Source: Ornithinimicrobium pekingense DSM 21552 (GTDB lineage: Bacteria > Actinomycetota > Actinomycetes > Actinomycetales > Dermatophilaceae). From it: a stretch of 64,000 nt of DNA. A program made the position numbers and the translations under genes. Below are positions 7,627 through 41,338 of the stretch, piece after piece (within the stretch, counting starts at the first letter, position 1; each line of letters begins with the position of its first letter). The notes beneath the pieces are model-generated. The model did no database searches and had not been told where the DNA came from. It worked only from the letters and a program-made list of their open reading frames with translations. The stretch covers positions 186,001 through 250,000 of the forward strand of contig NZ_ATWJ01000013.1 of the NCBI RefSeq assembly GCF_000421185.1, written 5' to 3'.

Positions 7627-7872
7627 TCAGCCGCCGGCGAAGGGCGGGAGCACGTCCAGGACGGCGTCGTGGGCGATCGCCAGCCCGCGGTCGTTGACGT
7701 ACTGCCCCTCGTGGAGCACCGAGCTGCGGCGCAGCACCCGCTCCAGCTCGGCCCCGTGCAGCTCGACCAGCCGGTCGAGCAGACCCCCCAGGTCGTCCGC
7801 GTGCACCTGCTCGGTCTCGGTGCCGGCCGCCTCCGCCGCAGCGGCGAAGAACCTCACGGTCGCCATCGTCAT
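7627..7872 (-). CDS. moaD: MoaD-type molybdopterin synthase sulfur carrier
   Basis: Small ubiquitin-fold sulfur carrier (81 residues) with the diagnostic C-terminal Gly-Gly (PPFAGG), which is adenylylated and thiocarboxylated before delivering sulfur to the molybdopterin precursor. Its start ATG at 7872 overlaps the mobA stop (ATGA); a second ATG at 7866 is possible. The neighbouring moeZ (E1-like plus rhodanese) is the natural activating enzyme. Last gene of the nar operon, immediately followed by a terminator hairpin. MoaD is favoured over ThiS by context. Confidence 0.85.
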   Translation of the reverse strand: MTMATVRFFAAAAEAAGTETEQVHADDLGGLLDRLVELHGAELERVLRRSSVLHEGQYVNDRGLAIAHDAVLDVLPPFAGG

Positions 7873-8486
7873 CCCTCCAGGTCGAGTCGGTCCGTGGCCA
7901 TGGTCGCACGTCCCAGACGGCGTTCCCAGTCCTGCGCGTCCTCCCAGGTGTCGACGTCCCCCAGGTGCTCCGCGCCACGCTCCACGGTCTGCCAGGACAG
8001 CCCGGACACCAACCGGCGGACGGAGGTATGCCGTGCCTCGCCGAGGTCCCGGAGCGCCGCCTCGAGCGCGGGGCGGCGGTAGACGGCGAGCAGCCACTGA
8101 CGGTGACCGCCGGCGTCCTCGTGACTCACCGCGTCCACGTCCTCGCCCAGTCCCGGCAGCGTGGCACAGAGGGCGGCGAGCGCACGGGCGGCGCCGGGCT
8201 GGTCCACCGCCACGACCGCGACCCAGGACGCGGCGGGCCGCAGCACCTCGAGGCCGGCGGCGATCCCCGCCACGGGCCCGCCGTCCGGCGGGTCCTCCAG
8301 CGTCCGCGGGACGTCGGCCGGCACGGGGGTGTCGCCGACCACGACCACCCGGCCGCCCAGGGCGGGGGCGGCGTCCAGAACCCGGTCCAGCAGCGGGCGC
8401 CCGCCGAGCGTCAGCGCCGCCTTGTCCTGGCCTCCGAGGCGCTCGCCGCGGCCGCCGGCCAGCACCAGCAGGTCGATGGCGTGCAC
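7869..8486 (-). CDS. mobA: MobA-like molybdenum cofactor guanylyltransferase
   Basis: Nucleotidyltransferase (205 residues) predicted to attach GMP to molybdopterin, giving the bis-MGD cofactor that NarG and FdhA require. Glycine-rich NTP loop LVLAGGRGERLGGQDKAAL at the N-terminus and the VAVDQPG segment at the position of the usual D-x-P metal site. I chose the GTG at 8486 because GAGG sits 7 nt upstream; longer forms would run into a repeated non-coding stretch. Coupled to moaD by ATGA. The 141-bp gap to moeZ is the only large gap in the operon and carries direct repeats. Confidence 0.85.
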   Translation of the reverse strand: MHAIDLLVLAGGRGERLGGQDKAALTLGGRPLLDRVLDAAPALGGRVVVVGDTPVPADVPRTLEDPPDGGPVAGIAAGLEVLRPAASWVAVVAVDQPGAARALAALCATLPGLGEDVDAVSHEDAGGHRQWLLAVYRRPALEAALRDLGEARHTSVRRLVSGLSWQTVERGAEHLGDVDTWEDAQDWERRLGRATMATDRLDLEG

Positions 8487-8510
8487 ACCACGTCCTCGGT
8501 CGCCGTCCGG

Positions 8511-8600
8511 GCGTGCACCCGGTGTCGTCGGTGGGGTCACGGGCGTGCACACGGTGTCGTCGGTGGGGCGGTGGGCGGGCGCACGGTGTCGTCGGTCGGG
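8511..8600. repeat. Three degenerate direct repeats between moeZ and mobA
   Basis: GTGCACNCGGTGTCGTCGGT-like units begin at about 8513, 8545 and 8581 (spacing 32-36 bp), with a decayed fourth copy at 8480-8500. They fill the only sizeable gap inside an otherwise overlapping operon. No spacer-like unique blocks, so not a CRISPR. Role unknown. Confidence 0.75.
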
Positions 8601-8627
8601 ATGGGGAGTGGGGTCGGGTCGGGTGCG

Positions 8628-9827
8628 TCAGTAGGTCGGGAGGGTGGGGTCGACGCGCTCGATCCAGGCGAGGATGCCGCCGGTCATCACGCGGACGTCG
8701 GGGTGGCCCACCTTGACCAGGTGGGCTGCGGCGCGACGGGCGCGGGGGCCGGTCTTGCAGTAGACGACCACGGGCCCGTCGGGCAGCTGGCCGACGAGCT
8801 CCTCCCAGGTCAGCACCTCCCCGACCGGGACCGTCAGCGCGCCCGGGACCGTGCCGAGGGCGTGCTCGGCGGGCTCGCGCACGTCGAGCAGCACCGGGGC
8901 GGGACCGCCGGGACCGCCGGGACCGCCGGGACCGTCGGTGCCGGCCAGCTCGTCGCGGACCTCCTCGGCGGAGACCTCCACGAGCGGCACCAGCTCGCGC
9001 ACCTGCTCGTGGGCGGGCGGCGCGACGACGGCACCGACGGGGCGCAGCGGGACCTCGCGGGTGCGCTGCGACAGGGCGTCGACGAGCAGGACCCGCCCCA
9101 CCAGCGGCTCGCCGAAGCCGCAGATCAGCTTGACCGCCTCGCCGGCCATGATCGAGCCGACCTGTCCGACCAGGGCCCCGAGCACGCCGGCCTCGGAGCA
9201 CGAGGGCACGTCCTCCGGACGCGGCGGCACCGGAAAGAGGTCGCGCAGGCTGACCGACCCCTCCAGCCCCGGCACGAACGCCGAGATCTGGGCGTCGAAG
9301 CGCAGCACCGCGGCCCACACCACCGGCAGCCCGAGCGCGGCGCAGGCGTCGGACACCGCATACCTCGTGGGGAAGTTGTCCGCGCCGTCCAGGACGAGGT
9401 CGTGCCCGGCGAGCAGCGCCTGGGCGTTCTCCGGCGTGATCCGGGTGTGGTGCACGGTCACCGACACGTCGGGGTTGAGGCCGCGGACGTAGCCGGCCGC
9501 CGAGTCGACCTTGCGCTGCCCCACCGCGTCGGTGCGGTGGACGACCTGGCGCTGCAGGTTGGTGGTGTCGATGACGTCGTCGTCGATGATCGTCAGGTGC
9601 CCGGTGCCGGCGGCGGCCAGGTAGGCCAGGATCGGGCTGCCCAGCCCGCCCGCGCCGACGACGGCGACGCGCGCGTTGAGCAGCCGCCGCTGCGCCTCGA
9701 TGCCCATGCCGGGCACGAGCAGGTGGCGCGAGTAGCGCGAGACCTGCGCCGGGGTCAGCTCGGGGCCGGGCTCGACGAGCGGCAGGAGGCGGTCGGTCAC
9801 GCCCGGCAGCGTACGCGTGGGCGTCAT
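8628..9827 (-). CDS. moeZ: MoeZ-type E1-like adenylyltransferase with rhodanese domain
   Basis: 399-residue two-domain enzyme that activates MoaD-type carriers. N-terminal ThiF/MoeB domain: ATP loop VVGAGGLGSPILAYLAAAG, the D-x-V-x-x-x-N-L-Q-R-Q segment (DDVIDTTNLQRQ) and PSCSEAGVLG holding the adenylation-site Cys region. C-terminal rhodanese domain with catalytic Cys in YCKTGPRARR carries the persulfide. The domains are joined by a Gly-Pro linker encoded by four 9-bp tandem repeats at 8901-8936. ATG at 9827 overlaps the cupin gene stop (ATGA). The operon position implies that Moco sulfuration is made together with nitrate reductase. Confidence 0.9.
   Translation of the reverse strand: MTPTRTLPGVTDRLLPLVEPGPELTPAQVSRYSRHLLVPGMGIEAQRRLLNARVAVVGAGGLGSPILAYLAAAGTGHLTIIDDDVIDTTNLQRQVVHRTDAVGQRKVDSAAGYVRGLNPDVSVTVHHTRITPENAQALLAGHDLVLDGADNFPTRYAVSDACAALGLPVVWAAVLRFDAQISAFVPGLEGSVSLRDLFPVPPRPEDVPSCSEAGVLGALVGQVGSIMAGEAVKLICGFGEPLVGRVLLVDALSQRTREVPLRPVGAVVAPPAHEQVRELVPLVEVSAEEVRDELAGTDGPGGPGGPGGPAPVLLDVREPAEHALGTVPGALTVPVGEVLTWEELVGQLPDGPVVVYCKTGPRARRAAAHLVKVGHPDVRVMTGGILAWIERVDPTLPTY
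8901..8936. repeat. 9-bp tandem repeat in moeZ linker
   Basis: Four units of GGGACCGCC (last one GGGACCGTC) encode the GPGGPGGPGG linker between the E1 and rhodanese domains. The unit is a multiple of three, so copy-number change would alter linker length without a frameshift. Confidence 0.85.
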
Positions 9828-29784: not shown

Positions 29785-31056
29785 TCAGCTCCCGGCCGGA
29801 GCGACCCCGACCGCAGCCACCGACTCGCGCCAGATGCCCAGGGCCTCGGCCACGAGCGCCTCGTCGACGACGAGCGCCGGGATGAAGCGGACCACCTGGC
29901 CCCACGCCCCGCAGGTGAGCAGCAGCAGCCCGCGCCGGGCGGCCTCCTGCTGCGCCGCTGCGGCCGTGGCGGCGTCGGGCTCGCCGTCGACGTCGCGGAA
30001 CTCCGCGCCGAGCATCAACCCCAGCCCGCGCACGTCGGTGATCCGGGGGTCGTCGGCCGCGACCTTCTCCAGCCCGGCGCGCAGCTGCTCGCCCCGCACC
30101 GCTGCGTTGTCGACCAGGCCCTCCCCCTGGATCACCTCGAGCGTGGCCACGGCCGCGGCGCAGGCGACGGCGTTGGCGCCGTAGGTCCCGCCCTGCGAGC
30201 CCGGCCAGGCGCGGCTCATCAGCTCCTCGGAGGCGGCGATGCCCGACAGCGGGAAGCCGGAGGCCAGGCCCTTGGCCGTGACGAGCACGTCCGGCCGGCC
30301 GTCGAAGTGGTCGTGACCCCAGAACCGGCCCGTGCGGCCCCACCCGGTCTGCACCTCGTCCACCACCAGCAGGATGCCGTGCCGGTCGGCCCGCTCGCGC
30401 AGGCCGGCGAGGAACTCGGTGGACGCCGGGACGTAGCCGCCCTCACCCAGGACCGGCTCGACGACGAAGGCCGCCGTGTCTGCGGGGGCGCTGACGGTCT
30501 GCAGCAGGTGGTCGAGCTCGCGCAGCGCGAACCGGGTGGCCTCCTCCTGGGTCCACCCGTAGTGGGTGGGGTTGGGGAAGGGCGCCAGGTGCACGCCCGC
30601 CATGAGGGGGGCGAACCCGGCGCGGAACCGCGTGCCCGAGCTGGTCATCGACGCGGCCGCGACCGTGCGGCCGTGGAAGCCGCCGTGGAAGGCGACGACG
30701 TTGGGCCGCCCGGTCGCCTGCCGCACGAGCCGCAGCGCCGCCTCGACCGCCTCGGAGCCGGAGTTGGCGAAGAACATGCGGTCGAGCCCCGCCGGGAGCA
30801 CCTCGCCCATCCGCTCCACCAGCGTCAGCAGCGGCCGGTGCATCACGGTGGTGTACTGCGCGTGGATAATCCGCCCCACCTGCTCCTGGGCGGCCGCGAC
30901 CACCCGCGGATGGCAGTGGCCCGTGCTGGTGACGCCGATCCCCGCGGTGAAGTCGAGGTAGCGCCGGTCCTCCTCGTCGAAGATCAGCGCACCCTCGCCG
31001 CGCGCCGCCACGACCCCTGTGGCCTGCCTGAGCACCGGGGACAACGTCGTCGCCAT
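29785..31056 (-). CDS. Class III omega-aminotransferase (GabT/DoeD-like)
   Basis: 423-residue PLP enzyme moving an omega-amino group to 2-oxoglutarate. Motifs: LDFTAGIGVTSTGHCHPRV, FFANSGSEAVEAALRL (PLP phosphate), VVDEVQTGWGRTGRFW (Asp on the pyridine N) and VTAKGLASGFPLSG (PLP Lys). Substrate candidates are 4-aminobutyrate or 2,4-diaminobutyrate. ATG at 31056 has GGAGG 8 nt upstream. Divergent from the aldehyde dehydrogenase with the ATTGTCGACAAT palindrome between, so product aldehyde and oxidising enzyme are co-regulated. In an ectoine pathway this would be DoeD and its partner DoeC. Confidence 0.85.
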   Translation of the reverse strand: MATTLSPVLRQATGVVAARGEGALIFDEEDRRYLDFTAGIGVTSTGHCHPRVVAAAQEQVGRIIHAQYTTVMHRPLLTLVERMGEVLPAGLDRMFFANSGSEAVEAALRLVRQATGRPNVVAFHGGFHGRTVAAASMTSSGTRFRAGFAPLMAGVHLAPFPNPTHYGWTQEEATRFALRELDHLLQTVSAPADTAAFVVEPVLGEGGYVPASTEFLAGLRERADRHGILLVVDEVQTGWGRTGRFWGHDHFDGRPDVLVTAKGLASGFPLSGIAASEELMSRAWPGSQGGTYGANAVACAAAVATLEVIQGEGLVDNAAVRGEQLRAGLEKVAADDPRITDVRGLGLMLGAEFRDVDGEPDAATAAAAQQEAARRGLLLLTCGAWGQVVRFIPALVVDEALVAEALGIWRESVAAVGVAPAGS

Positions 31057-31079
31057 GCCACACACCTCCAGCGTTGGTA

Positions 31080-31093
31080 GATTGTCGACAATC
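31080..31093. promoter_or_regulatory. GntR(FCD)-type operator, copy 1
   Basis: Perfect 14-bp palindrome GATTGTCGACAATC in the divergent promoter of the aminotransferase and aldehyde dehydrogenase genes. The core ATTGTYGACAAT recurs at 35873-35884 in the second divergent promoter of the cluster. It matches the TNGTNNNACNA-like sites of FadR/VanR-type GntR regulators, and such a regulator is encoded at 32621-33331. Confidence 0.82.
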
Positions 31094-31147
31094 ACCGTAT
31101 CCCATCTGACGTCCCTGCCCGGCCCTCGAGAAGGAGCGGTTTCCGCC

Positions 31148-32605
31148 ATGACCCCCACCGTCGTCAGCACCGTCCCCTCCCAGCTCTTCGTCGCGGGGAG
31201 GTGGGTCGACGCCACGGGAGGGGCGACGTTCGAGGTCGTCAACCCGGCCACCGGCGAGGTGGTCCGCGAGGTCGCCGACGCCACGCCCCAGGACGGGCGC
31301 GCCGCCCTGGAGGCCGCCGTCGCGGCCCAGCCCGGGTTCGCCCGGACCACGCCCCTGGAGCGTCACGAGATCCTCATGACCGCCTTCGGTCTGCTGCACG
31401 AGCGGGCCGACGACCTGGCCCTGCTGATGACCACCGAGATGGGCAAGCCGCTGGCCGAGGCGCGCGGCGAGATCAGCTACGCCGCGGAGTTCCTGCGGCA
31501 TTTCGCCGGGGAGGCGCTGCGCATCGACGGGGGCTACCAGGTGGCGCCGCAGGGCGGGGCCCGGATGCTGGTCACCCGTCAGCCGGTCGGCCCCTGCCTG
31601 CTCATCACCCCGTGGAACTTCCCGATGGCGATGGGCACCCGCAAGATCGCCCCGGCGATCGCGGCCGGCTGCACCAGCGTGATCAAGCCCGCCCACCAGA
31701 CCCCGCTGTCGATGCTCGCCTTCGTCGACATCCTGCGCGAGGCCGGGCTGCCCGACGGTGTCGTCAACTGCGTGACCGCCACCGACTCCGGCGGGGTCAT
31801 GGAGCCGCTCATCCGCTCCGGTCTGGCCCGCAAGCTGTCCTTCACCGGGTCGACGCGGGTGGGCAAGATCCTGCTCGAGCAGTGCGCCGGGACGGTCCTG
31901 CGCACCTCGATGGAGCTCGGGGGCAACGCCCCCTTCGTGGTCTTCGAGGACGCCGACCTCGACGAGGCGGTGACCGGGGCGATGGCGGCCAAGATGCGCA
32001 ACATGGGCGAGGCGTGCACCGCGGCCAACCGGATCTACGTCCAGGAGTCGGTGATCGAGGAGTTCGGCGCGCGGCTGGCCCGCCGGATGGGGGCGCTCAC
32101 CGTGGGCGACGGCACCCACGAGGGCGTCGACGTCGGCCCGCTCATCGACGAGGCGGCCCTGGAGAAGGTGACGACGCTGACGGCCGACGCCGTGGAACGC
32201 GGCGCCACGGTCCTGTGCGGGGGCGAGCCGGGCGAGGGGCCCGGCTTCTTCTACCCGCCGACCGTGCTCACCGGGGTGCCGACCGACGCCCGGATGTCAG
32301 CGGAGGAGATCTTCGGCCCGGTGGCCCCGCTCACCCCGTTCAGCACCGAGGAGGAGGCGGTGCGGCTGGCCAACGACACCCCCTACGGCCTGGTCGCCTA
32401 CGTCTACACCCAGGACCTGCGTCGGGCGCTGCGCACGGCCGAGGCGATCGAGAGCGGCATGGTCGGGCTCAACCAGGGGGTGGTCTCCAACCCCTACGCC
32501 CCCTTCGGCGGCGTGAAGGAGTCCGGCCTGGGCCGCGAGGGCGGGCCGACGGGCATCGACGAGTACCTGGAGACCAAGTACGTCAGCATCTCGATGCCCG
32601 ACTGA
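31148..32605 (+). CDS. NAD(P)-dependent semialdehyde dehydrogenase
   Basis: 485-residue aldehyde dehydrogenase of the succinate-semialdehyde dehydrogenase (GabD) type. Motifs: LITPWNFPMAMGTRKIAPAI (cofactor), FTGSTRVGK, MELGGNAPFVVF (catalytic Glu) and MGEACTAANRIYV (nucleophile Cys). Oxidises the semialdehyde made by the neighbouring aminotransferase: succinate semialdehyde if the substrate is GABA, aspartate semialdehyde if diaminobutyrate. GGAG lies 11 nt before the ATG at 31148. Converges on gntR over a hairpin that includes both stops. Confidence 0.88.
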   Translation: MTPTVVSTVPSQLFVAGRWVDATGGATFEVVNPATGEVVREVADATPQDGRAALEAAVAAQPGFARTTPLERHEILMTAFGLLHERADDLALLMTTEMGKPLAEARGEISYAAEFLRHFAGEALRIDGGYQVAPQGGARMLVTRQPVGPCLLITPWNFPMAMGTRKIAPAIAAGCTSVIKPAHQTPLSMLAFVDILREAGLPDGVVNCVTATDSGGVMEPLIRSGLARKLSFTGSTRVGKILLEQCAGTVLRTSMELGGNAPFVVFEDADLDEAVTGAMAAKMRNMGEACTAANRIYVQESVIEEFGARLARRMGALTVGDGTHEGVDVGPLIDEAALEKVTTLTADAVERGATVLCGGEPGEGPGFFYPPTVLTGVPTDARMSAEEIFGPVAPLTPFSTEEEAVRLANDTPYGLVAYVYTQDLRRALRTAEAIESGMVGLNQGVVSNPYAPFGGVKESGLGREGGPTGIDEYLETKYVSISMPD

Positions 32606-32624
32606 GGAGCCACGGCTCTCTCAG
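32602..32624. terminator. Bidirectional hairpin over two stop codons
   Basis: CTGAG-GAGCC-AC-GGCTC-T-CTCAG: two stacked 5-bp stems with one bulged T. It covers the stop of the aldehyde dehydrogenase (plus) and of gntR (minus), a compact convergent terminator. Confidence 0.6.
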
Positions 32625-33331
32625 CCGGCCCCCTCCCGGTCGAGCGCCCGCTCGCTGAGCTCGACGAGCTCGGTGACGGCGTCCTCCATGTGCGCCACCA
32701 GGAGCCGGTCGAGCAGCTCGCCGTCGCCGTCCCGCAGCGCCTGGACGATGGCGCGGTGCTCCTCCACCCGCAGCACGTCGTGGGCGTAGGTGCTGCCGAG
32801 CGCATGGATGCAGATCCGGGCCTCGGCCGCCTGGGTCTCGTGCACGCGGCGCAGGCGCTGGCTGCCGGTGAGCCCCACGAGGGTCTCGTGGAAGCGGATG
32901 TCGGCCTCGGCGACGCCGCGGGAGTCCCCGGCCTCGGCGGCCCGGGCCATCTCCTCCAGCGCCGTGCCGAGCGCGTCGGCCGCGGCGACGTGGTCCCCCC
33001 GGACCAGGACGTCGGCGGCGCAGCGCTCGATCGCCGCGCGCGCGAGGTACATGTCGCGCACGTGCTCGGGGGTCAGCTCGACGACGAAGAGGCCGCGGTT
33101 GCGGACCGAGACGAGCAACCCCTCCTGGGCGAGCCGCTGCAGCCCCTCGCGCAGGGGCCCGCGGCTGACACCCAGCTGGCGTGCCAGGTCGGCCTCGAAG
33201 AGCTGGGCGCCCGGCGGGAAGTCCCCGCTGGCGATGGCCGCACGCACCAGCGCGGCGATCCGTGAGGGCGTCGACTCCTGGACCAGCGGCTCGAGCACGG
33301 CGGCCGACGGGGTCGCGGCGCGCGGGCTCAC
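32621..33331 (-). CDS. GntR-family (FCD) regulator of the catabolic cluster
   Basis: 236 residues: N-terminal winged HTH (FEADLARQLGVSRGPLREGL; QEGLLVSVRNRGLFVVEL) and a C-terminal FCD ligand domain (YLARAAIERCAADVLV, DIRFHETLVGLTGSQRL, EEHRAIVQALRDGD) whose Asp/His residues would hold a metal and the effector. GTG at 33331 overlaps the aminotransferase stop (GTGA). Its predicted sites are the two ATTGTYGACAAT palindromes at 31081 and 35873, which would put all six surrounding genes, including itself, under its control. Effector unknown, probably a pathway intermediate. Confidence 0.88.
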   Translation of the reverse strand: MSPRAATPSAAVLEPLVQESTPSRIAALVRAAIASGDFPPGAQLFEADLARQLGVSRGPLREGLQRLAQEGLLVSVRNRGLFVVELTPEHVRDMYLARAAIERCAADVLVRGDHVAAADALGTALEEMARAAEAGDSRGVAEADIRFHETLVGLTGSQRLRRVHETQAAEARICIHALGSTYAHDVLRVEEHRAIVQALRDGDGELLDRLLVAHMEDAVTELVELSERALDREGAG

Positions 33332-34560
33332 CGGCCCTCCGACCCTGCCCGCACCCGGTCGACGGCGACCCGCAGCCGCCGCACCCCCTCGTGGATGCGC
33401 TCCGGCGCCGTGGACGCGAAGCACAGCCGCAGCGCGTGGGGGAAGCGGCCCTCGGGGGAGAAGGCGTTGCCCGGGATGAAGGCCACCCCCTCGTCGAGCG
33501 CGACCTCGAAGAGCGCCTGGGTGTCGACGGGCTCCTCGAGGGTGACCCACAGGAAGAACCCGCCCTCGGGGTCGGTCCACCGGGCGAGGTCGGCGAAGTG
33601 CTCCCCGAGCGCCTCCTGCATCGCCTCCTTGCGCAGCCGGTAGCGCTCCCGCTGCGTGGCCAGGTGCTCGGCGAGGTGCCCTCCCCGCAGAAAGCCGGCG
33701 ACGAGCCGCTGCATCGGCAGGTTGGTGCAGGTGTCCATCGCCTGCTTGGCGCTGATCAGCACCGGCTGCAGCGAGGGGTCGGCGTCGACCCACCCCACCC
33801 GCAGCCCCGGCGCGATGATCTTGGAGAAGGTCCGCACGGAGAAGACCAGCGGGTCACCGTCGGCCAGCTGGTGCAGCGTCAGCACGTCCTCGCCGGCGAA
33901 GCGCAGCAGGCCGTAGGGGTCGTCGTCGACGACCACGCTGCCCCACTCGCGCGCCAGCTCCAGCAGCTGCCCGCGCCGCTGCTCCGACATGGTGGCGCCC
34001 GAGGGGTTCTGGAAGGTCGGGACGGTGTAGATCGCCTTGGGACGGCCGTGCCGCTCACCCAGCGACCGCAGCTCCTCGACGACCATCCCCTCGCCGTCGA
34101 CGGGCACCTCCAGCAGCCGGGCCTGGTAGGACAGCGCCGTCCCGCTGCCGTTGGTGTAGGTCGGCGACTCCACGGCGACGAGGTCACCGGGGTCGACGAA
34201 GAGCTTGCAGGCCAGGTCCAGGCCCTGCATCCCGCCGCTGGTGATGGTCAGCCGCTCGGCGGTGGTCGCGTCGCCCGTGCCCGCGAGCGCGCCGAGCAGC
34301 GCCTCGCGCAGTGCGGGGTCACCCTCGGTCGCGGCGTAGTCGAAGGCGTCCGCGGCGCCGGCACCGATCGTCTCCCGCCCGACCTCGGCCAGGGTCTGCG
34401 TCGGGATGGCCTCGGGCGCCGGGCTGCCCATGGCGAAGCGCACGATGTCGTGGGTGCGCGTGGCCAGCAGCGAGGTGCTGGAGTCGATCACCGAGCCCAC
34501 CAGCCCTGCGGCGCGGGCCGCCAGGGGCAGCGTGGAGGTCGTGCTGGGTGGTGCGCTCAC
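33328..34560 (-). CDS. Class I/II PLP aminotransferase
   Basis: 410-residue fold-type I aminotransferase of the 2-aminoadipate/LysN-MocR type. Motifs: ITSGGMQGLDLACKLFVDPGD, TVPTFQNPSGATMS, VVDDDPYGLLRF and the PLP lysine region FSVRTFSKIIAPGLRVGW. GTG at 34560 follows GAGAGG by 8 nt. Coupled to gntR by GTGA; gene order HTH regulator plus this aminotransferase recalls the two halves of a MocR regulator encoded separately. It probably acts on an amino acid released by the M24 enzyme upstream. Confidence 0.82.
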   Translation of the reverse strand: MSAPPSTTSTLPLAARAAGLVGSVIDSSTSLLATRTHDIVRFAMGSPAPEAIPTQTLAEVGRETIGAGAADAFDYAATEGDPALREALLGALAGTGDATTAERLTITSGGMQGLDLACKLFVDPGDLVAVESPTYTNGSGTALSYQARLLEVPVDGEGMVVEELRSLGERHGRPKAIYTVPTFQNPSGATMSEQRRGQLLELAREWGSVVVDDDPYGLLRFAGEDVLTLHQLADGDPLVFSVRTFSKIIAPGLRVGWVDADPSLQPVLISAKQAMDTCTNLPMQRLVAGFLRGGHLAEHLATQRERYRLRKEAMQEALGEHFADLARWTDPEGGFFLWVTLEEPVDTQALFEVALDEGVAFIPGNAFSPEGRFPHALRLCFASTAPERIHEGVRRLRVAVDRVRAGSEGR

Positions 34561-34612
34561 GTTCGTGGCCTCTCGTCGGGTGCGTGCGTGCGGGTACGGG
34601 GTCTGCGCCGGG

Positions 34613-35848
34613 TCAGTCCTTGACCACGAGGTCCTGGGGCAGGGGGGCCAGCCGCTCGACGGCACCGTCCGGGCCGGTGCCGACGAGGACCGGCTCGGAC
34701 AGCTCGTAGCCCCAGCCCTCCATCCACATGCCGAGGATGACGTGGAACGCCATACCCCGCTGGAGCCGGGTGAGGTCGCCCGAGCGCAGGCTGATCGTGC
34801 GCTCGCCCCAGTCGGGCGGGTAGCCGACCCCGATCGAGTAGCCCACCCGGGAGCCCTTGACGTAGCCGTGCCGGCCGACCGCGTCGGCGAAGGCGGCCTG
34901 CACGCGGTGGCCGGTCGACCCGGGCCGCAGCTCCTCCAGGGCGGCGCGCAGCCCCTCGGTCACCGCGTCGGCGCACCGGCGCAGCTCGGCCGGGGGCGGG
35001 CCCAGGCTGACCGTGCGGGCGAGCGGCACGTGGTAGCGGTGGTAGACCCCGGCGAGCTCGACGGTGGTCGCCTCCCCGGGGCGCAGGGGCAGGTCGCTCC
35101 AGGTCAGGTGCGGCGTGCCGGCGGTCTCCCCCGTCGGCAGCATCGGCACGATGGCCGGGTAGTCGCCGCCGAGCTTGCGCGCGCCGAGGGCCTGGGCGTA
35201 CTGGATCTGCGCGACGACGTCGCACTGGCGCCGGCCCGGCTCGACGTGCTCGAGGGCGATCCGCATGACGTTCTGGGCGATCTCCCCGGCGACGCGCAGC
35301 TTGTCCTGCTCCAGCGGCGACTTCACGACCCGCACCCAGTTGACCAGCTCGTGGCTGTCGACGAGCTCGGCGCTGGCCAGCTGGGCCCGCAGCGCCAGGT
35401 GGCTGCGCACGGAGAAGTACGGAGCATCGGTCTCGACGCCGACCCGGGCGGACGGGGTGTCCTCGAGCACCCCCAGCTCGACCGCCTGCCGGCCGATCCA
35501 GTCGAAGGGGTGCCGGTCGGGGCGGTGCACCAGGTCCTCGGGATAGCCGTGGATCTGCTCCACGGGCAGGTATGCGGTGTAGTGGGCACCCTGCGCGTCC
35601 ATCTCCCGCATGAACAGGTGCGGCTCGCCGCGCACCGGCACGACGAGGCACTGCGGCATGTAGAACGACCAGGCGTTGTAGCCGGTGAGGTAGTACAGGT
35701 TGGCCGGGTCGGCCACGACGAGGGCCGACAGGTCGCTGCGCGCCATCGCCTCCTGCACCCGCGCCAGCCGCTCGAGGTACTCGGGCACCGGGAACGGCCG
35801 GGAGCGGATGCTCTCCCGCTCCATCAGCTCCCCGCCGGAGGTGGTCAT
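34613..35848 (-). CDS. M24-family hydrolase, ectoine hydrolase (DoeA/EutD)-like
   Basis: 411-residue pita-bread fold protein. The N-terminal domain (YYLTGYNAWSFYMPQCLVV; REMDAQGAHYTAYL; DRHPFDWIGRQA) and the catalytic domain (GGDYPAIVPMLPTGETAGTP; YSIGVGYPPDWGERTISL; GMAFHVILGMWMEGWGYELS) follow ectoine hydrolase DoeA/EutD as I remember it, rather than ordinary Xaa-Pro peptidases. DoeA opens the ectoine ring to acetyl-diaminobutyrate. The expected deacetylase DoeB is not in the window, so the substrate may instead be a related cyclic or amide compound. First gene of a minus-strand unit with the aminotransferase and gntR; the promoter carries operator copy 2. Confidence 0.8.
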   Translation of the reverse strand: MTTSGGELMERESIRSRPFPVPEYLERLARVQEAMARSDLSALVVADPANLYYLTGYNAWSFYMPQCLVVPVRGEPHLFMREMDAQGAHYTAYLPVEQIHGYPEDLVHRPDRHPFDWIGRQAVELGVLEDTPSARVGVETDAPYFSVRSHLALRAQLASAELVDSHELVNWVRVVKSPLEQDKLRVAGEIAQNVMRIALEHVEPGRRQCDVVAQIQYAQALGARKLGGDYPAIVPMLPTGETAGTPHLTWSDLPLRPGEATTVELAGVYHRYHVPLARTVSLGPPPAELRRCADAVTEGLRAALEELRPGSTGHRVQAAFADAVGRHGYVKGSRVGYSIGVGYPPDWGERTISLRSGDLTRLQRGMAFHVILGMWMEGWGYELSEPVLVGTGPDGAVERLAPLPQDLVVKD

Positions 35849-35872
35849 GCTGCATCGTGCCTCACGGGGAGG

Positions 35873-35905
35873 ATTGTTGACAATAAGACACCCCCTTCCT
35901 ACGTT
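35873..35905. promoter_or_regulatory. GntR operator copy 2 over a sigma70-type promoter
   Basis: Palindrome ATTGTTGACAAT at 35873-35884. It contains the -35 box TTGACA (35877-35882) of a plus-strand promoter with a 17-bp spacer and -10 TACGTT (35900-35905), placing +1 at or near the GTG of the dehydrogenase. Binding of the GntR protein would block this promoter and the divergent M24 promoter. Confidence 0.78.
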
Positions 35906-35911
35906 GACCGG

Positions 35912-36898
35912 GTGAGCACCAGCCGCCCCGTCATCGCCGTGCTGTGCGCCACCGTGGACGACGTGCCGCCGCACCTGGAGCAGCTGGCCGGGCGGGCCGA
36001 GCTGCGCCCGACGGACGAGGAGGGGCTGGCGGAGGCGATCGCCGGTGCCGACGCGCTGCTGCTGTGGGACTTCTTCTCCCGCGCGGTGCAGGACGTCTGG
36101 CCGCGGGCCGACCGCCTGCGGTGGGTCCACGTCGCGGCCGCCGGCGTGGACACCCTGCTCTTCGAGGAGCTGCGCGCCTCCGACGTCGTCGTGACCAACG
36201 CCCGCGGGATCTTTGACCGCCCGATCGCCGAGTTCGTCCTCGGGGCCGTGCTGGCGCACGCCAAGCGCGTCCACGAGAGCCACGACCTGCAGCGCGAGCG
36301 GCGATGGCGGCACCGCGAGACCCGGCGGGTGCAGGGCGCACGGGTGATGGTCGTGGGGACCGGCGCCATCGGGCGGGAGACCGCCCGGCTGCTGCGTGCC
36401 GTGGGGATGGAGGTGGTCGCCGCCGGCAGCCGGGCCCGTCCCGAGCCGGACCCCGACCTCGGCCCGGTCGTGGCCAGCGCCGACCTGGCCGATCACGTGG
36501 TCGACGTCGACTACCTGGTCAACGCCGCCCCGCTGACCCCGGCCACGCACGGCCTCCTGGACGCGAGGGTGCTGGCGGCCCTGCCCGCCCACGCCCACCT
36601 GGTCAACGTCGGGCGTGGGGCGACGGTGGTCGAGGAGGACCTGCTGGCCGCGCTGCGTGCCGGCGCGCTGGACGGCGCCACCCTCGACGTGTTCGCGACC
36701 GAGCCGCTGCCTCCGGGCTCACCCCTGTGGGACACCCCCGGGGTGGTCGTGTCGGCGCACATGTCCGGCGACGTCGTCGGCTGGCGTGACGCGCTGGCAC
36801 GGCAGTTCGTCGACAACGCCGCCCGCTGGCTCGACGGCAGCCCGCTGCTCAACGTCGTGGACAAGCAGCTCGGCTACGTGTCGACGGCTGGTGCCTGA
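35912..36898 (+). CDS. D-isomer-specific 2-hydroxyacid dehydrogenase
   Basis: 328-residue NAD(P)-dependent dehydrogenase. Rossmann loop VVGTGAIGRE; catalytic triad Arg in VNVGRGATVVEE, Glu in DVFATEPLPPGS and His in VVVSAHMSGD. GTG start is predicted leaderless (-10 ends 6 nt upstream). Divergent from the M24 hydrolase with a shared operator, so it likely reduces a 2-oxo acid produced by the pathway's aminotransferases. The exact substrate cannot be told. Confidence 0.87.
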   Translation: MSTSRPVIAVLCATVDDVPPHLEQLAGRAELRPTDEEGLAEAIAGADALLLWDFFSRAVQDVWPRADRLRWVHVAAAGVDTLLFEELRASDVVVTNARGIFDRPIAEFVLGAVLAHAKRVHESHDLQRERRWRHRETRRVQGARVMVVGTGAIGRETARLLRAVGMEVVAAGSRARPEPDPDLGPVVASADLADHVVDVDYLVNAAPLTPATHGLLDARVLAALPAHAHLVNVGRGATVVEEDLLAALRAGALDGATLDVFATEPLPPGSPLWDTPGVVVSAHMSGDVVGWRDALARQFVDNAARWLDGSPLLNVVDKQLGYVSTAGA

Positions 36899-37615: not shown

Positions 37616-38139
37616 CGGTCGTGCGGCCCACGAAGGTGCGCTGCGCTCCGACGCCTGCGCAGCAGCCGGCCCGTGCGCGCCGTCAGCCAGCCCCCGAGCA
37701 GGGCCGGAACGAGCGCCAGCGCACCGGCGGCCGCCCCCTGCGCGCGCACGCCGCCAGGCCCCGGGTCCACGACGTCGCGCGCCAGCTGCCACCCGACGAC
37801 CAGGGCCACGCCCAGCGCGGCGGTGAGGGTCGCGACCGCCCACGACGACCACCAGGCAACGCGGTCGCTGCGCAGCCGCGGCTGCAGCACCGCGTTGACC
37901 AGGCCGCCGGGAGTGCCCACCACCCCGCCGAGCGTCGCGCCGAGGAGCAGGCCGAGCACCGGTGCTCCGAGGAGCAGGCTGGCCCGCTCGACCACCCGAC
38001 CGCCGTCGACCCCTCCACCCGCCAGCGCCACCGCGGCCCAGCCCAGCCCGCAGAGCAGCCCGGTGGCCGCGCCGACGGCCACGCCCCACCCGAGCCCGGC
38101 CGCGGCATACCGCCACTCCACGGCGTGCGGGGCGCTCAC
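37570..38139 (-). CDS. Hypothetical membrane protein coupled to selB
   Basis: 189 residues, about four TM helices (YAAAGLGWGVAVGAATGLLC; LLGAPVLGLLLGATLGGVVG; WAVATLTAALGVALVVGWQL), then a basic, Arg-rich tail. Family not recognised. GTG start overlaps the selB stop (GTGA), so it is translated as the third gene of selA-selB. Its last 46 nt overlap the opposite-strand channel-like gene. A link to selenium is suggested only by position. Confidence 0.68.
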   Translation of the reverse strand: MSAPHAVEWRYAAAGLGWGVAVGAATGLLCGLGWAAVALAGGGVDGGRVVERASLLLGAPVLGLLLGATLGGVVGTPGGLVNAVLQPRLRSDRVAWWSSWAVATLTAALGVALVVGWQLARDVVDPGPGGVRAQGAAAGALALVPALLGGWLTARTGRLLRRRRSAAHLRGPHDRQDASTAACSSERRK

Positions 38140-40016
38140 CGCACCACCTGACGCAGGCGGCCGTCCAGACGTCGCGTCCAGCCGCGCTGGTCCAGGTGCT
38201 CCAGCAGGGGGACCGCGACCCGGCGGGTCGTCCCGAGGGCCTGCCGTGCGGCGCTCAGCGTGAACGGCTGGTCGAGCGCCGCCAGCTCGCGCATGGCACG
38301 CGCGGGGGCGTCGGGCAGGAGCACGACGTCGTCGGGCAGGCGGACCAGCCTCCCGAGCCGGGCCGCTGCCGCCAGCTCGACCGGGCCCAGGCCCAGCCGC
38401 GCCAGGTCGTCACGCTCCGGCGCGGCGAAGGGGGTGGCGCGCAGCCGAGCCTCGAGCTCGGCGACCCCCGCCTCCGCGGGGCCGAGGCCGCCCGCCTCGG
38501 GGACGCAGACCCGTCCGCCCGCCACCGTCAGGCCGGCGTGCGCGGCGACGTGGCGCACCAGGTCGGCCTCCGGGGGCGCCAGGTCGTCCGGTAGGGACCC
38601 GCCGGCCGAGACGGGTCGCAGGTGCCCCGGCAGGTCCAGGGCGTGCGCCACCCCGGCGAGCGGCATCCCCGCGCTCAACGGCTGCTCCTCGTGGTGCGCC
38701 CGCACCGCGCGCCCCGCCCGGTCCGACCAGACCTCCACTGCCCCGGGGTCGACCCACCAGCCCTCCACCCGCTGGCCGGTGGAGGGGTCGCCCAGCCCGA
38801 GACGCCGCAGGACCGTCGGGTGCTCGGCCGAGCGGGACCGCAGCCGCAGGTCGGCGAGGGCCGTCGTGGCCGCATCCCCTGCCCTCCCTGCGTCGGCGGC
38901 CGCGAGTGACTCGGCGCGGGTGCGGGCCGCGCCGCGGCGGCGCAGCGGGAGCGGGTCCACGTCGAGAACGCGCGCCGACCACAGCCGGCGGGTGCCCGGG
39001 TCGCGCAGGACGGCGCGGTCGCCGACGTGCCACGGCAGGGCGAGGGGGAGCGACAGCCGGGCGTACCCCGGCCCGAGGGGGCGCAGCCGCACGGGGTGGT
39101 CGGCCGTTCCCACGTGCAGCACGAGATGCTCCGGAGGACCGCCGTCCGTCCCGGGCCGAGCACCCGGCTCCCCGGCGCTGACCGGGGTGAGGCCGACATC
39201 GACGGCACGCGCCGACGCGAAGGCCCCGGGGGTCGTGAGCACGGACTCGCGGCCGACCTCCTCGGTGTCGGTGCGGCGCAGGTTGACCGCCACCCGGGAC
39301 ACCGGCCCCACGGCCTCGCGTCCGACGTCACCGCTGTGCAGCCCACGGACGACCACCTCGCGCACGCGGTCGCCGGACACCAGGGTGAGGGTGTCGCCGA
39401 CGGACAGGGTCCCTGCCCCCAGGGTGCCGGTGACGACGGTCCCGGCCCCCTGGACCGTGAAGGACCGGTCGCACCACAGCCGCACCGGGGCGTGCGGGTC
39501 CGGCGCCGGCAGGCGGGCCACCAGCGCGTCGAGGGCCGCCCGCAGCTGCTCCATACCCGCTCCCGTGCGCGCCGACACCAGCTCGCCGGGAACGTCGAGC
39601 CCCGCCGCTGCCAGGCGGCGGGTCGCCTCGGCCCGGACCTCCTCGGCCCGCCGCGCCTCGGCGAGGTCGGCCCGGGTGAGGACGAGCAGGCCGTCGGTGA
39701 TGCCGAGCGCGCGGACCGCCGCGAGGTGCTCCTCGCTCTGCGCCTGCCAGCCCTGGTCGGCCGCGACGACGAACACGACCGCCGGCGCCGGTCCCAGGCC
39801 GGCCAGGGTGTTGCCGACGAACCGCTGGTGCCCCGGCACGTCGACGAACGCCACGTCGGCACCGCCGGGCAGCCGCGTCCAGGCGAAGCCGAGCTCGATC
39901 GTCAGGCCCCGCTCCTTCTCGGCCGCGAGCCGGTCGGGGTCGCGCCCGGTCAGCGCCTGCACGAGCGTCGATTTGCCGTGGTCGACGTGCCCGGCGGTGG
40001 CGAGCACCCGCCTCAT
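38136..40016 (-). CDS. selB: Selenocysteine-specific elongation factor SelB
   Basis: 626-residue GTPase that carries Sec-tRNA to UGA codons by binding a downstream mRNA hairpin. GTPase motifs: GHVDHGKST (P-loop), VDVPGHQRF (G3), TRAD (G4 variant of NKxD). EF-Tu-like domains II-III follow, then the C-terminal winged helices that bind SECIS RNA (final repeat: FTLSAARQALGTTRRVAVPL). ATG overlaps the selA stop (ATGA). Required for the UGA codon in fdhA at 49021-49023. Confidence 0.95.
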   Translation of the reverse strand: MRRVLATAGHVDHGKSTLVQALTGRDPDRLAAEKERGLTIELGFAWTRLPGGADVAFVDVPGHQRFVGNTLAGLGPAPAVVFVVAADQGWQAQSEEHLAAVRALGITDGLLVLTRADLAEARRAEEVRAEATRRLAAAGLDVPGELVSARTGAGMEQLRAALDALVARLPAPDPHAPVRLWCDRSFTVQGAGTVVTGTLGAGTLSVGDTLTLVSGDRVREVVVRGLHSGDVGREAVGPVSRVAVNLRRTDTEEVGRESVLTTPGAFASARAVDVGLTPVSAGEPGARPGTDGGPPEHLVLHVGTADHPVRLRPLGPGYARLSLPLALPWHVGDRAVLRDPGTRRLWSARVLDVDPLPLRRRGAARTRAESLAAADAGRAGDAATTALADLRLRSRSAEHPTVLRRLGLGDPSTGQRVEGWWVDPGAVEVWSDRAGRAVRAHHEEQPLSAGMPLAGVAHALDLPGHLRPVSAGGSLPDDLAPPEADLVRHVAAHAGLTVAGGRVCVPEAGGLGPAEAGVAELEARLRATPFAAPERDDLARLGLGPVELAAAARLGRLVRLPDDVVLLPDAPARAMRELAALDQPFTLSAARQALGTTRRVAVPLLEHLDQRGWTRRLDGRLRQVVR

Positions 40017-41338
40017 ACCCCGGTCGTCCCCAGCGCCTCGCGCAGCGCGCGCAGCAGGTCGTCGTCCCGGTCCGGAGGTATGCAGCGCACGTCGACCAGG
40101 CCGCGCCCGTCCTCGACCCGCGCCAGGACGACCGGCACGTCCGGGCTCGCGGGCCGGCGCAGCCGCTCGACCGTCTCCACCGGCAGCTCCACGGCCCAGC
40201 CGGGCAGCGGGACACCCGGCGCGCCCCCTCCTCCGACCCGCCCCTCGACGGGGACGACGTCGCGTCCGAGCGCGCGGGCGAGGCGTTCGGCCCGGGGCCG
40301 CAGCTCCTCGGCCGTGGCGTGCAGCGCCTCGCGGACGGGGCTCGCGGCCGTGCGCACGGTGGCCTCGAGCGCGGCCAGCGTGAGCTTGTCGACGCGCAGC
40401 GCCCGCGCCAGCGGGTGCCGGCGCAGCTGCTGCACGGTCGCCTGCTCGCCCAGGACCAGCCCCGCCTGGGGGCCGCCGAGCAGCTTGTCACCGCTGGCGG
40501 TGACGATCGTGGCGCCGTCGCGCAGGGCGGTGGCCGCGTCCGGCTCCTGCGGCAGCACCGGGTCGGGCGCGAGCAGGCCGGAGCCGATGTCGGCGACGAC
40601 GGGCACCCGGGTGCCGTCGGGGCGCCGCAGGTCGCGCAGCTCGGCCAGCCCGGCGGCGGAGACGAAGCCCTCGACGCGGAAGTTGCTGGGATGCACCTTG
40701 AGCACGCACCCGGTGTCCGCTCCCACCGCGTCGGCGTAGTCCTGGCGGTGGGTGCGGTTGGTGGTGCCGACCTCGCGCAGCCGCGCCCCGGTGGAGGCGA
40801 TGAGGTCGGGCAGCCGGAACCCGTCGCCGATCTCGACCATCTCGCCCCGGGACACGACGACCTCGCGACCGGCGGCGAGCGCGGTGGTGGCCAGGACCAG
40901 GGCGGCGGCGCCGTTGTTGACCACGAGGGCGTCCTGCGCCGCGGGCACCGCCTCGCGCAGCGCCGCGAGCGCTCCCGTGCCGCGTCGGCCACGCGCCCCC
41001 GTGGACAGGTCCAGCTCGACGTCGACGTAGCCGGTGGCGTCGAGCACCGCCTCGACCGCCGCACGCGACAGCGGCGCGCGGCCGATGTTGGTGTGGACGA
41101 CCACGCCGGTGGCGTTGAGCACCGGCGTGAGGGAGGACGCGCGGGCGGGGAGGGCGGCGAGCGCGGCGGCCGCGACCTCCTCGGGGTCGATCTCTCCACG
41201 GCGGGCCCGGTCCTGGGCACCGGCCACCGCGGCCCGGACCGACGACCGCCCCAGCCGGGCGGCCGCCGCGGCCAGGGGCGGGCTCGCGAGGAGCACGTCG
41301 GTGCGGGCGATCGCCCGGCGCGGGTCGCTCTGGCTCAC
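40013..41338 (-). CDS. selA: L-seryl-tRNA(Sec) selenium transferase
   Basis: 441-residue PLP enzyme that converts Ser-tRNA(Sec) to Sec-tRNA(Sec) with selenophosphate. The PLP lysine is in TASGDKLLGGPQAG; other landmarks are LNATGVVVHTNIGRAPLS, VVNNGAAALVLA and VLKVHPSNFRVEGF. GTG at 41338 follows GGGAG by 6 nt. It lies 42 nt downstream of the tRNA-Sec gene on the same strand and is coupled to selB. Confidence 0.96.
   Translation of the reverse strand: MSQSDPRRAIARTDVLLASPPLAAAAARLGRSSVRAAVAGAQDRARRGEIDPEEVAAAALAALPARASSLTPVLNATGVVVHTNIGRAPLSRAAVEAVLDATGYVDVELDLSTGARGRRGTGALAALREAVPAAQDALVVNNGAAALVLATTALAAGREVVVSRGEMVEIGDGFRLPDLIASTGARLREVGTTNRTHRQDYADAVGADTGCVLKVHPSNFRVEGFVSAAGLAELRDLRRPDGTRVPVVADIGSGLLAPDPVLPQEPDAATALRDGATIVTASGDKLLGGPQAGLVLGEQATVQQLRRHPLARALRVDKLTLAALEATVRTAASPVREALHATAEELRPRAERLARALGRDVVPVEGRVGGGGAPGVPLPGWAVELPVETVERLRRPASPDVPVVLARVEDGRGLVDVRCIPPDRDDDLLRALREALGTTGV

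Follow-up and report, generated by a model that had tools for sequence, protein, structure and literature searches.

Ectoine catabolism is controlled by the MocR-type repressor EnuR/EhuR, and the EnuR-controlled cluster comprises EutD, an aminotransferase and a semialdehyde dehydrogenase, as described in two reports (PMC5924519, PMC13188858). For Gram-positive bacteria, a breakdown pathway for ectoine has to date been postulated from gene neighbourhoods only; the putative clusters of Bacillota and Actinomycetota, which were put forward tentatively, contain a EutD homolog, an abgB amidohydrolase and varied transporters, with no eutE in Bacillota in the text available (PMC13188858). The regulator named for the putative Bacillota clusters is PucR, and the main text of PMC13188858 contains neither GntR nor any mention of Serinicoccus or Janibacter. 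Among GntR regulators, PrpR (PA0797) of Pseudomonas aeruginosa is a GntR-FCD repressor of the 2-methylcitrate operon, supported by EMSA (PMC9765439), and FadR-subfamily operators carry TKGT/ACMA boxes with 2-3 nt between GT and AC and often lie in divergons (PMC4494728).

Here we describe a six-gene cluster of Ornithinimicrobium pekingense DSM 21552, contained in a 64,000-nt stretch of DNA (the window), in which one 12-bp palindrome is placed at two divergent promoters (Table 1). Judged from the sequence, the neighbouring GntR protein very probably binds the palindrome, and we consider it likely that both copies are operators of this cluster-encoded FCD-type regulator and, less certainly, that they serve an ectoine-type catabolic pathway, degrading some small compound akin to an osmoprotectant.

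Table 1. Genes, palindromes and predicted promoter elements of the cluster (window positions)
Feature	Coordinates	Strand	Basis or role
AT3, class III aminotransferase (GABA/DABA-transaminase-like)	29785..31056	-	PF00202, 387 bits
Predicted -10 TAGATT, ALDH promoter, overlaps palindrome	31078..31083	+	20/25 sequences vs 13.8% in shuffled flanks
Site 1 palindrome ATTGTCGACAAT, fully symmetric	31081..31092	.	Predicted GntR operator in the AT3/ALDH gap
Predicted -10 TACGGT, AT3 promoter, 1 bp off palindrome	31094..31099	-	Conservation
ALDH, succinate-semialdehyde-dehydrogenase-like aldehyde dehydrogenase	31148..32605	+	TIGR01780, 560.6 bits (cut-off 646); PF00171
gntR, FadR/FCD subfamily, predicted binder of both sites	32621..33331	-	PF00392 and PF07729 above cut-off; relatives' alignment
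AT1, fold-type I aminotransferase, like MocR aminotransferase domain	33328..34560	-	PF00155 above cut-off
M24 hydrolase, DoeA/EutD-like (ectoine hydrolase-like)	34613..35848	-	TIGR02993, PDB match, alignment
Site 2 palindrome ATTGTTGACAAT	35873..35884	+	Predicted GntR operator in the M24/HADH gap
-35 box TTGACA, HADH promoter, within palindrome	35877..35882	+	Sequence
Predicted -10 TACGTT, 17-bp spacer	35900..35905	+	Conservation in related sites
HADH, D-2-hydroxyacid dehydrogenase	35912..36898	+	PF02826 and PF00389 above cut-off; PDB relatives

Cluster genes and candidate substrate

The names that an earlier note on this DNA had given to the six cluster members proved correct by profile matches. 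M24 scored 403.4 bits over residues 19-411 against TIGR02993, the DoeA/EutD equivalog model, which is under the cut-off of 613, and we therefore call it DoeA-like rather than DoeA. Its nearest solved relative is DoeA (PDB 6twk/6twj, 347 bits; next entry 83 bits), and the alignment between the two spans residues 16-410 with the motif regions aligned. AT3 and ALDH belong to superfamilies that suit Atf/DoeD and Ssd/DoeC, with no equivalog match among those listed, and the NCBIfam matches listed for AT3 were all under cut-off. The proteobacterial eutABCDE/ssd/atf/enuR cluster has EutE/DoeB and a MocR-type EnuR, whereas the window cluster has neither. EnuR carries a MocR aminotransferase domain (PMC5924519, PMC13188858); the window regulator, in contrast, is of the FCD type, and its MocR-like neighbour AT1, for which PdxR was the best NCBIfam match (217 bits, cut-off 320), showed no GntR or DNA-binding domain in a Pfam domain search. 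The EhuR model NF052286 gave 19 bits in the window cluster (cut-off 480).

O. pekingense itself encodes EctB and EctC, the only proteins for which ectoine-pathway models were not under cut-off. Its genome contains no EutA1 match and no close M20 relative, and the best EutE/DoeB match is a distant DoeB-like protein of 86.5 bits (cut-off 402.7). A palindrome-controlled transporter in this genome was considered and rejected: there is no close MHS relative, and the genome's EhuB-like gene has no palindrome. In relatives, the palindrome precedes EutA-like genes as well as genes for ProP-like, EhuB-like (four genomes) and BCCT (two genomes) transporters, and it led to ehuB and BCCT genes that lie well away from the cluster. 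An ArgE/DapE-like M20 deacylase is a further addition in the relatives' clusters. The EutA-like proteins of relatives reach 102 and 77 bits, far under the cut-off of 318, and the EhuB-like proteins 178.6 bits, slightly under the cut-off of 190.9. We read these sequence comparisons as pointing to a repressor regulon for ectoine-type catabolism that is reduced in O. pekingense DSM 21552.

Confidence in the substrate is much lower than in the operator: clusters of one genus, g27, keep the palindrome and gntR with an amidase replacing the hydrolase. Four g27 genomes, searched in full, gave no M24, AT1 or M20 matches, and the clusters read gene by gene in two genomes encode an AS-family amidase (PRK06169, 729 bits, above cut-off); AT3, ALDH, HADH, EutA1/2 and gntR are retained. 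It is possible, if somewhat doubtful, that the same operator and repressor serve another substrate, namely an amide-, amidine- or lactam-containing amino acid leading to a GABA- or aspartate-semialdehyde-like step. Besides the g27 amidase, this would fit the scores of the ectoine-pathway models, the EutA-like proteins, which match arylmalonate decarboxylase nearly as well, and a GABA-permease-like gene that adjoins one palindrome (G033), but DoeA is the sole close solved relative of M24, and the EhuB-like, ProP-like and BCCT transporters preceded by the palindrome are compatible-solute transporter types. If the pathway is of the ectoine type, M24 would open the ring, AT3 and ALDH would carry the diaminobutyrate-like product to aspartate, and HADH and AT1 would contribute steps outside the known proteobacterial ectoine pathway.

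Placement of the palindrome at the two promoters

As the earlier note had claimed, an exact-match scan for ATTGTYGACAAT found sites 1 and 2 and no other place in the window, with 0.00 copies expected by chance (100 shuffles); allowing up to two mismatches yielded no extra place and added only the opposite strand of site 2. That note had also placed gntR between two divergent promoters. The sites do lie in the divergent gaps AT3(-)/ALDH(+) and M24(-)/HADH(+), but gntR itself is divergent from neither; it closes the leftward run M24-AT1-gntR, and some 2.5 kb separate its start codon from site 2.

At site 2, the -35 hexamer TTGACA lies inside the palindrome, as previously noted, and the GTG start codon of HADH (35912) follows 6 bp past the predicted -10 box. 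The HADH-side palindrome was found in 47 sequences, in 40 of which TTGACA is directed at HADH; the other seven (reverse orientation, AT3/HADH type) were omitted from the promoter count. TANNNT placed 17-19 bp past TTGACA and followed after 6-7 bp by ATG or GTG was present in 35 of these 40 sites compared with 3.0% in shuffles, and TANNNT was absent in five. The HADH mRNA is, on this spacing, likely to be leaderless. A scan for the strict sigma-70 consensus found no promoter, so the predicted boxes rest on conservation instead. At site 1, the palindrome between AT3 and ALDH is conserved in 25 sequences including the window, and on the AT3 side TANNNT lies 1-3 bp off the palindrome in 18 of the 25 (3.5% in shuffled flanks); the four g27 sites among them have neither -10 box. 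For each promoter of this divergent pair, the predicted start point falls under the site 1 palindrome.

Both sites show the features of FadR-subfamily operators, with the sequence TTGT-CG/TG-ACAA, TKGT/ACMA boxes, 2-nt spacing and a single central site in a divergon (PMC4494728). The 12-nt consensus of PrpR is identical to site 1, and both regulators are FCD-type GntR proteins; PrpR governs the methylcitrate cycle, whereas the window cluster consists of other genes, the likeness being drawn from the motif and the FCD type (PMC9765439). With a motif that equals the operator consensus of PrpR and suits the FadR (FCD) subfamily, this switch belongs to a known type. The GntR protein matches PF00392 with 59.5 bits (cut-off 27) and PF07729 with 69.2 bits (cut-off 24.3). 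In an alignment of 44 distinct GntR proteins of relatives (drawn from 48; some, e.g., that of L146, were missed by extraction, and several carry an over-long N terminus from the ORF rule), identity is 72% in the HTH and 48% in the FCD domain, the sequence SRGPLRE is invariant, and D144, H148, H192 and H214, which we take to be metal and effector ligands, are kept in at least 85% of the 44 sequences.

A palindrome over the -35 box at site 2 and over start points at site 1 occupies repressor positions. When inducer is absent, a GntR dimer would bind both palindromes, at site 1 covering the start points of the AT3 and ALDH promoters and at site 2 covering the HADH -35 box together with a putative M24-AT1-gntR promoter, and we propose that gntR is, through the latter, also self-repressed. 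A pathway intermediate, probably a carboxylate held in the FCD domain, would then free GntR and switch on all six genes. Some FadR-subfamily members activate, and activation in one direction from a position near a -35 box is conceivable; an activating or dual role of this GntR at the two sites is nevertheless unlikely given these positions and the fact that PrpR, with the same motif, represses.

Conservation of the palindrome with gntR

Among 60 loci (L061-L110, L018-L026 and L029, with L017, L027 and L028 set aside, as were the named duplicates, L005-L016 and L030), gntR was seen at 38, all of which have the palindrome, as do two of the 22 others. ATTGTHGACAAT occurred in 43 of the 51 family genomes that have an M24 gene and in 34 of the 135 that lack one, although kinship among the loci means that such tables overstate independence. 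Of the two exceptions, L177 has gntR next door and the other lies on a short contig. Both gntR and the palindrome are missing from nine M24 loci (L018-L026), whose names are of the Microbacteriaceae type. The 34 palindrome genomes without M24 were examined save for G071, G137, G144, G147, G153, G154, G162, G167 and G175; G066 and G067 also lie outside the genomes examined. It would be quite improbable, on these counts, that the palindrome is the site of a regulator encoded elsewhere and gntR a mere passenger: a few exact palindromes do occur in genomes or places without the cluster, but 20 of the 22 loci lacking gntR also lack the palindrome, the motif is of the known FadR-subfamily type, and O. 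pekingense has two copies only.

These two copies emerged from the genome-wide scan that the earlier note had suggested as a check (G000, 3,852,644 bases, up to one mismatch): both exact copies of ATTGTYGACAAT in the 3.85 Mb are at the cluster promoters, against 0.0073 exact places expected per genome (first-order Markov, window composition). With these figures, and with 233 strand matches of ATTGTHGACAAT in 186 family genomes and six for the reversed pattern, a chance origin is rejected, and the idea of a symmetric -35 region with no operator, for which the hexamer within site 2 might speak, is negligible as site 1 lies over a -10 box and start point yet is equally conserved. Two places in G000 differ by a single mismatch and were not counted as regulon members; C4:5748 sits within a 158-aa reading frame, and C10:258295 is just 5' of an S1-like (rpsA) gene, named from its translation. 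Some palindromes of relatives, too, fall inside reading frames or beside unrelated genes.

The palindrome is thus confined to two promoters, is conserved with gntR and sits on promoter elements. The two-copy genome scan and the co-occurrence in relatives support the compact six-gene regulon of the earlier note, with one palindrome, two divergent promoters and a GntR-FCD regulator. The operator type is ordinary and already known, but the proposed regulon is new: the word "ectoine" is absent from the main text of PMC4494728, and the literature searched by titles and abstract openings, with subscription journals outside its scope, contained no GntR-FCD ectoine regulator.

We tentatively suggest that actinobacteria of this family may possess their own ectoine/hydroxyectoine utilization system, under a FadR-type GntR repressor in place of EnuR. 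Its chemistry would differ, an M20 deacylase standing in for EutE, and two EutA-like proteins together with a D-2-hydroxyacid dehydrogenase and a MocR-like aminotransferase taking the place of EutB/EutC. The MHS/ProP-like, EhuB and BCCT transporters would be interchangeable, with one 12-bp operator throughout, and the window organism would hold a stripped form of the system. A near-invariant operator that ties together the hydrolase, EutA-like proteins, transporters and regulator offers a direct handle on Gram-positive ectoine breakdown, and can be used for finding missing pathway members.

A predicted GntR operator at two divergent promoters

The earlier note had placed a 12-bp palindrome at the two divergent promoters around gntR and nowhere else in the window, which our search bore out, and the genome-wide scan that it called for returned the exact palindrome at two places only in the organism's own genome, with 0.0073 exact copies per genome expected from composition. 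One-mismatch palindromes were found at two further places, one inside a reading frame and the other, ATTGTGGACAAT at G000:C10:258295 (L004:1501), directly upstream of an rpsA-like gene. Judged by orientation, the cluster comprises four transcription units (AT3; ALDH; M24-AT1-gntR; HADH), each of which begins at one or other of the palindrome promoters. As gntR is last in its run, it would be autoregulated.

Genes and promoter elements of the cluster in the window
Feature	Position	Strand	Description
AT3	29785-31056	-	class III aminotransferase
Palindrome, site 1	31081-31092		AT3-ALDH divergent promoter region
ALDH	31148-32605	+	SSADH-like aldehyde dehydrogenase
gntR	32621-33331	-	GntR plus FCD domains
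AT1	33328-34560	-	MocR-like aminotransferase domain, without DNA-binding domain
M24	34613-35848	-	best match ectoine hydrolase DoeA
Palindrome, site 2	35873-35884		M24-HADH divergent promoter region
HADH -35 box	35877-35882		TTGACA
HADH -10 box (predicted)	35900-35905		TACGTT
HADH start codon	35912		GTG
HADH	35912-36898	+	D-2-hydroxyacid dehydrogenase

In an alignment of 44 distinct GntR proteins, mean identity to the window protein was 72% in the HTH versus 48% in the FCD domain, and SRGPLRE was invariant. Residues D144, H148, H192 and H214 are kept in at least 85% of these proteins; we take them to be this family's ligands of a metal and a carboxylate effector. FadR-subfamily operators carry TKGT/ACMA boxes with GT and AC 2 or 3 nt apart, according to PMC4494728. 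In PMC9765439, PrpR of Pseudomonas is described as a GntR-FCD repressor, with EMSA showing that it binds the upstream region, and its consensus is the same 12-mer as the palindrome here. We consider it well supported, from sequence comparison, that the palindrome is the predicted operator of this regulator and the six-gene cluster its regulon; both are ordinary in kind. AT1 is akin to the aminotransferase domain of the MocR-type regulators EnuR/EhuR and PdxR, with a separate GntR protein adjoining, and the two are possibly a split or recruited pair. Genes reading, from translations alone, as selB (38136-40016) and selA (40013-41338) adjoin the cluster.

Promoter anatomy

TTGACA is directed at HADH in 40 of 47 HADH-side palindrome sites and, in 35 of these 40, is followed after 17-19 bp by TANNNT and 6-7 bp further on by ATG/GTG (shuffle control for TANNNT, 3.0%). 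With a start codon so near the -10 box, the HADH mRNA would be leaderless. At site 1, TAGATT overlaps the palindrome on the ALDH strand in 20/25 sites (shuffles 13.8%), and on the AT3 strand TANNNT ends 1-3 bp before it in 18/25 (shuffles 3.5%), placing both predicted start points in or at the palindrome. A strict consensus promoter scan detected no promoter here, because the -10 boxes match the consensus only at TA...T. A protein bound at either site would obstruct polymerase, at site 2 because the -35 box is covered and at site 1 because the start points are.

Conservation among relatives

The M24 protein is encoded in 51 of 186 family genomes (E <= 1e-60), and 50 loci of relatives were retrieved for comparison. 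Gene order differs among them, with the palindrome constant at the AT3-ALDH and M24-or-EutA1-HADH promoters. Many carry extra genes, namely two EutA-like genes (EutA1, EutA2), an ArgE/DapE-like M20 deacylase and a ProP-like MHS transporter, often with additional palindromes; among 117 palindrome sites, 11 precede EutA2, 28 are located between EutA1 and HADH, and 8 precede MHS.

The exact palindrome ATTGTHGACAAT occurred in 38/38 loci with a gntR match versus 2/22 without (60 loci), and in 43/51 genomes with M24 versus 34/135 without, counts that are not independent since loci and genomes are related. The two exceptional loci were L073, whose genome has gntR at L177, and L082, on a 15.6-kb contig. 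Across the 186 genomes the pattern gave 233 strand matches and its reversed control 6. Fifteen of the 34 palindrome-bearing genomes without M24 belong to genus g27, where the 13 inspected have it at the AT3-ALDH or HADH-EutA1 promoter; G043 and G127 also have the AT3-ALDH promoter. Among eight inspected of the other 17, the site falls inside a predicted reading frame in G004, G026, G039, G104, G120 and G129, and outside in G017 and G027.

In G107, G110, G111 and G112, a palindrome outside the cluster precedes an EhuB-like gene by ~220 bp (the one protein scored, from G110, gave 178.6 bits, below the cut-off of 190.9). A palindrome is also present at the 5' end of a BCCT transporter gene in G130, as is the variant GTTGTCGACAAC in G108. 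The organism's own EhuB-like gene (L183, G000:C1:156000-172000, at 7850-8758; 185 bits, below the same cut-off) has no palindrome, though ~80% identical to the palindrome-preceded genes. In L150, a locus of genus g9 without the cluster, two palindromes 73 bp apart, GTTGTCGACAAT at 7916 and ATTGTCGACAAT at 7989, are flanked by an ABC-ATPase gene on one side and a short-chain-dehydrogenase-like gene on the other. In G033, where the cluster is also present, a palindrome (L157, 7928) lies near a GABA-permease-like gene (TIGR01773, 443 bits, below the cut-off of 678).

The pathway substrate

We rate the chance that the substrate is ectoine as about even or slightly better. This reading draws on the DoeA-like hydrolase, the EutA-like partners and the transporter types, on a transaminase and semialdehyde dehydrogenase pair that may correspond to DoeD/DoeC (PMC5924519), and on the ectoine synthesis genes of the organism itself (EctC, 184.4 bits, cut-off 27; EctB, 625.7 bits, cut-off 552.2). 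The M24 protein matched the DoeA structures 6twk/6twj at 347 bits, the next PDB entry scoring 83. A 2026 paper (PMC13188858) compiles tentative Gram-positive ectoine clusters and names PucR as the regulator in Bacillota.

The ectoine reading is weakened by scores below cut-offs, both for M24 (TIGR02993, 403.4 bits against 613) and for the EutA-like proteins of relatives (TIGR02990, 102 and 77 bits against 318). It is weakened also by the g27 genomes, which keep the palindrome, gntR, AT3, ALDH, HADH and EutA-like genes and gave no match for M24, AT1 or M20; in the two loci read, an AS-family amidase adjoining HADH occupies their place (L144, 9417-10787; L146, 8838-10283). Finally, a search of the organism's own genome found no EutA1, close M20 relative or DoeB, which likewise counts against ectoine and implies that the pathway is shortened here or that a deacylase is encoded elsewhere. 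A distant DoeB-like protein (G000:C2:137105-137947, L164; 86.5 bits, below the cut-off of 402.7) could supply a deacetylase.
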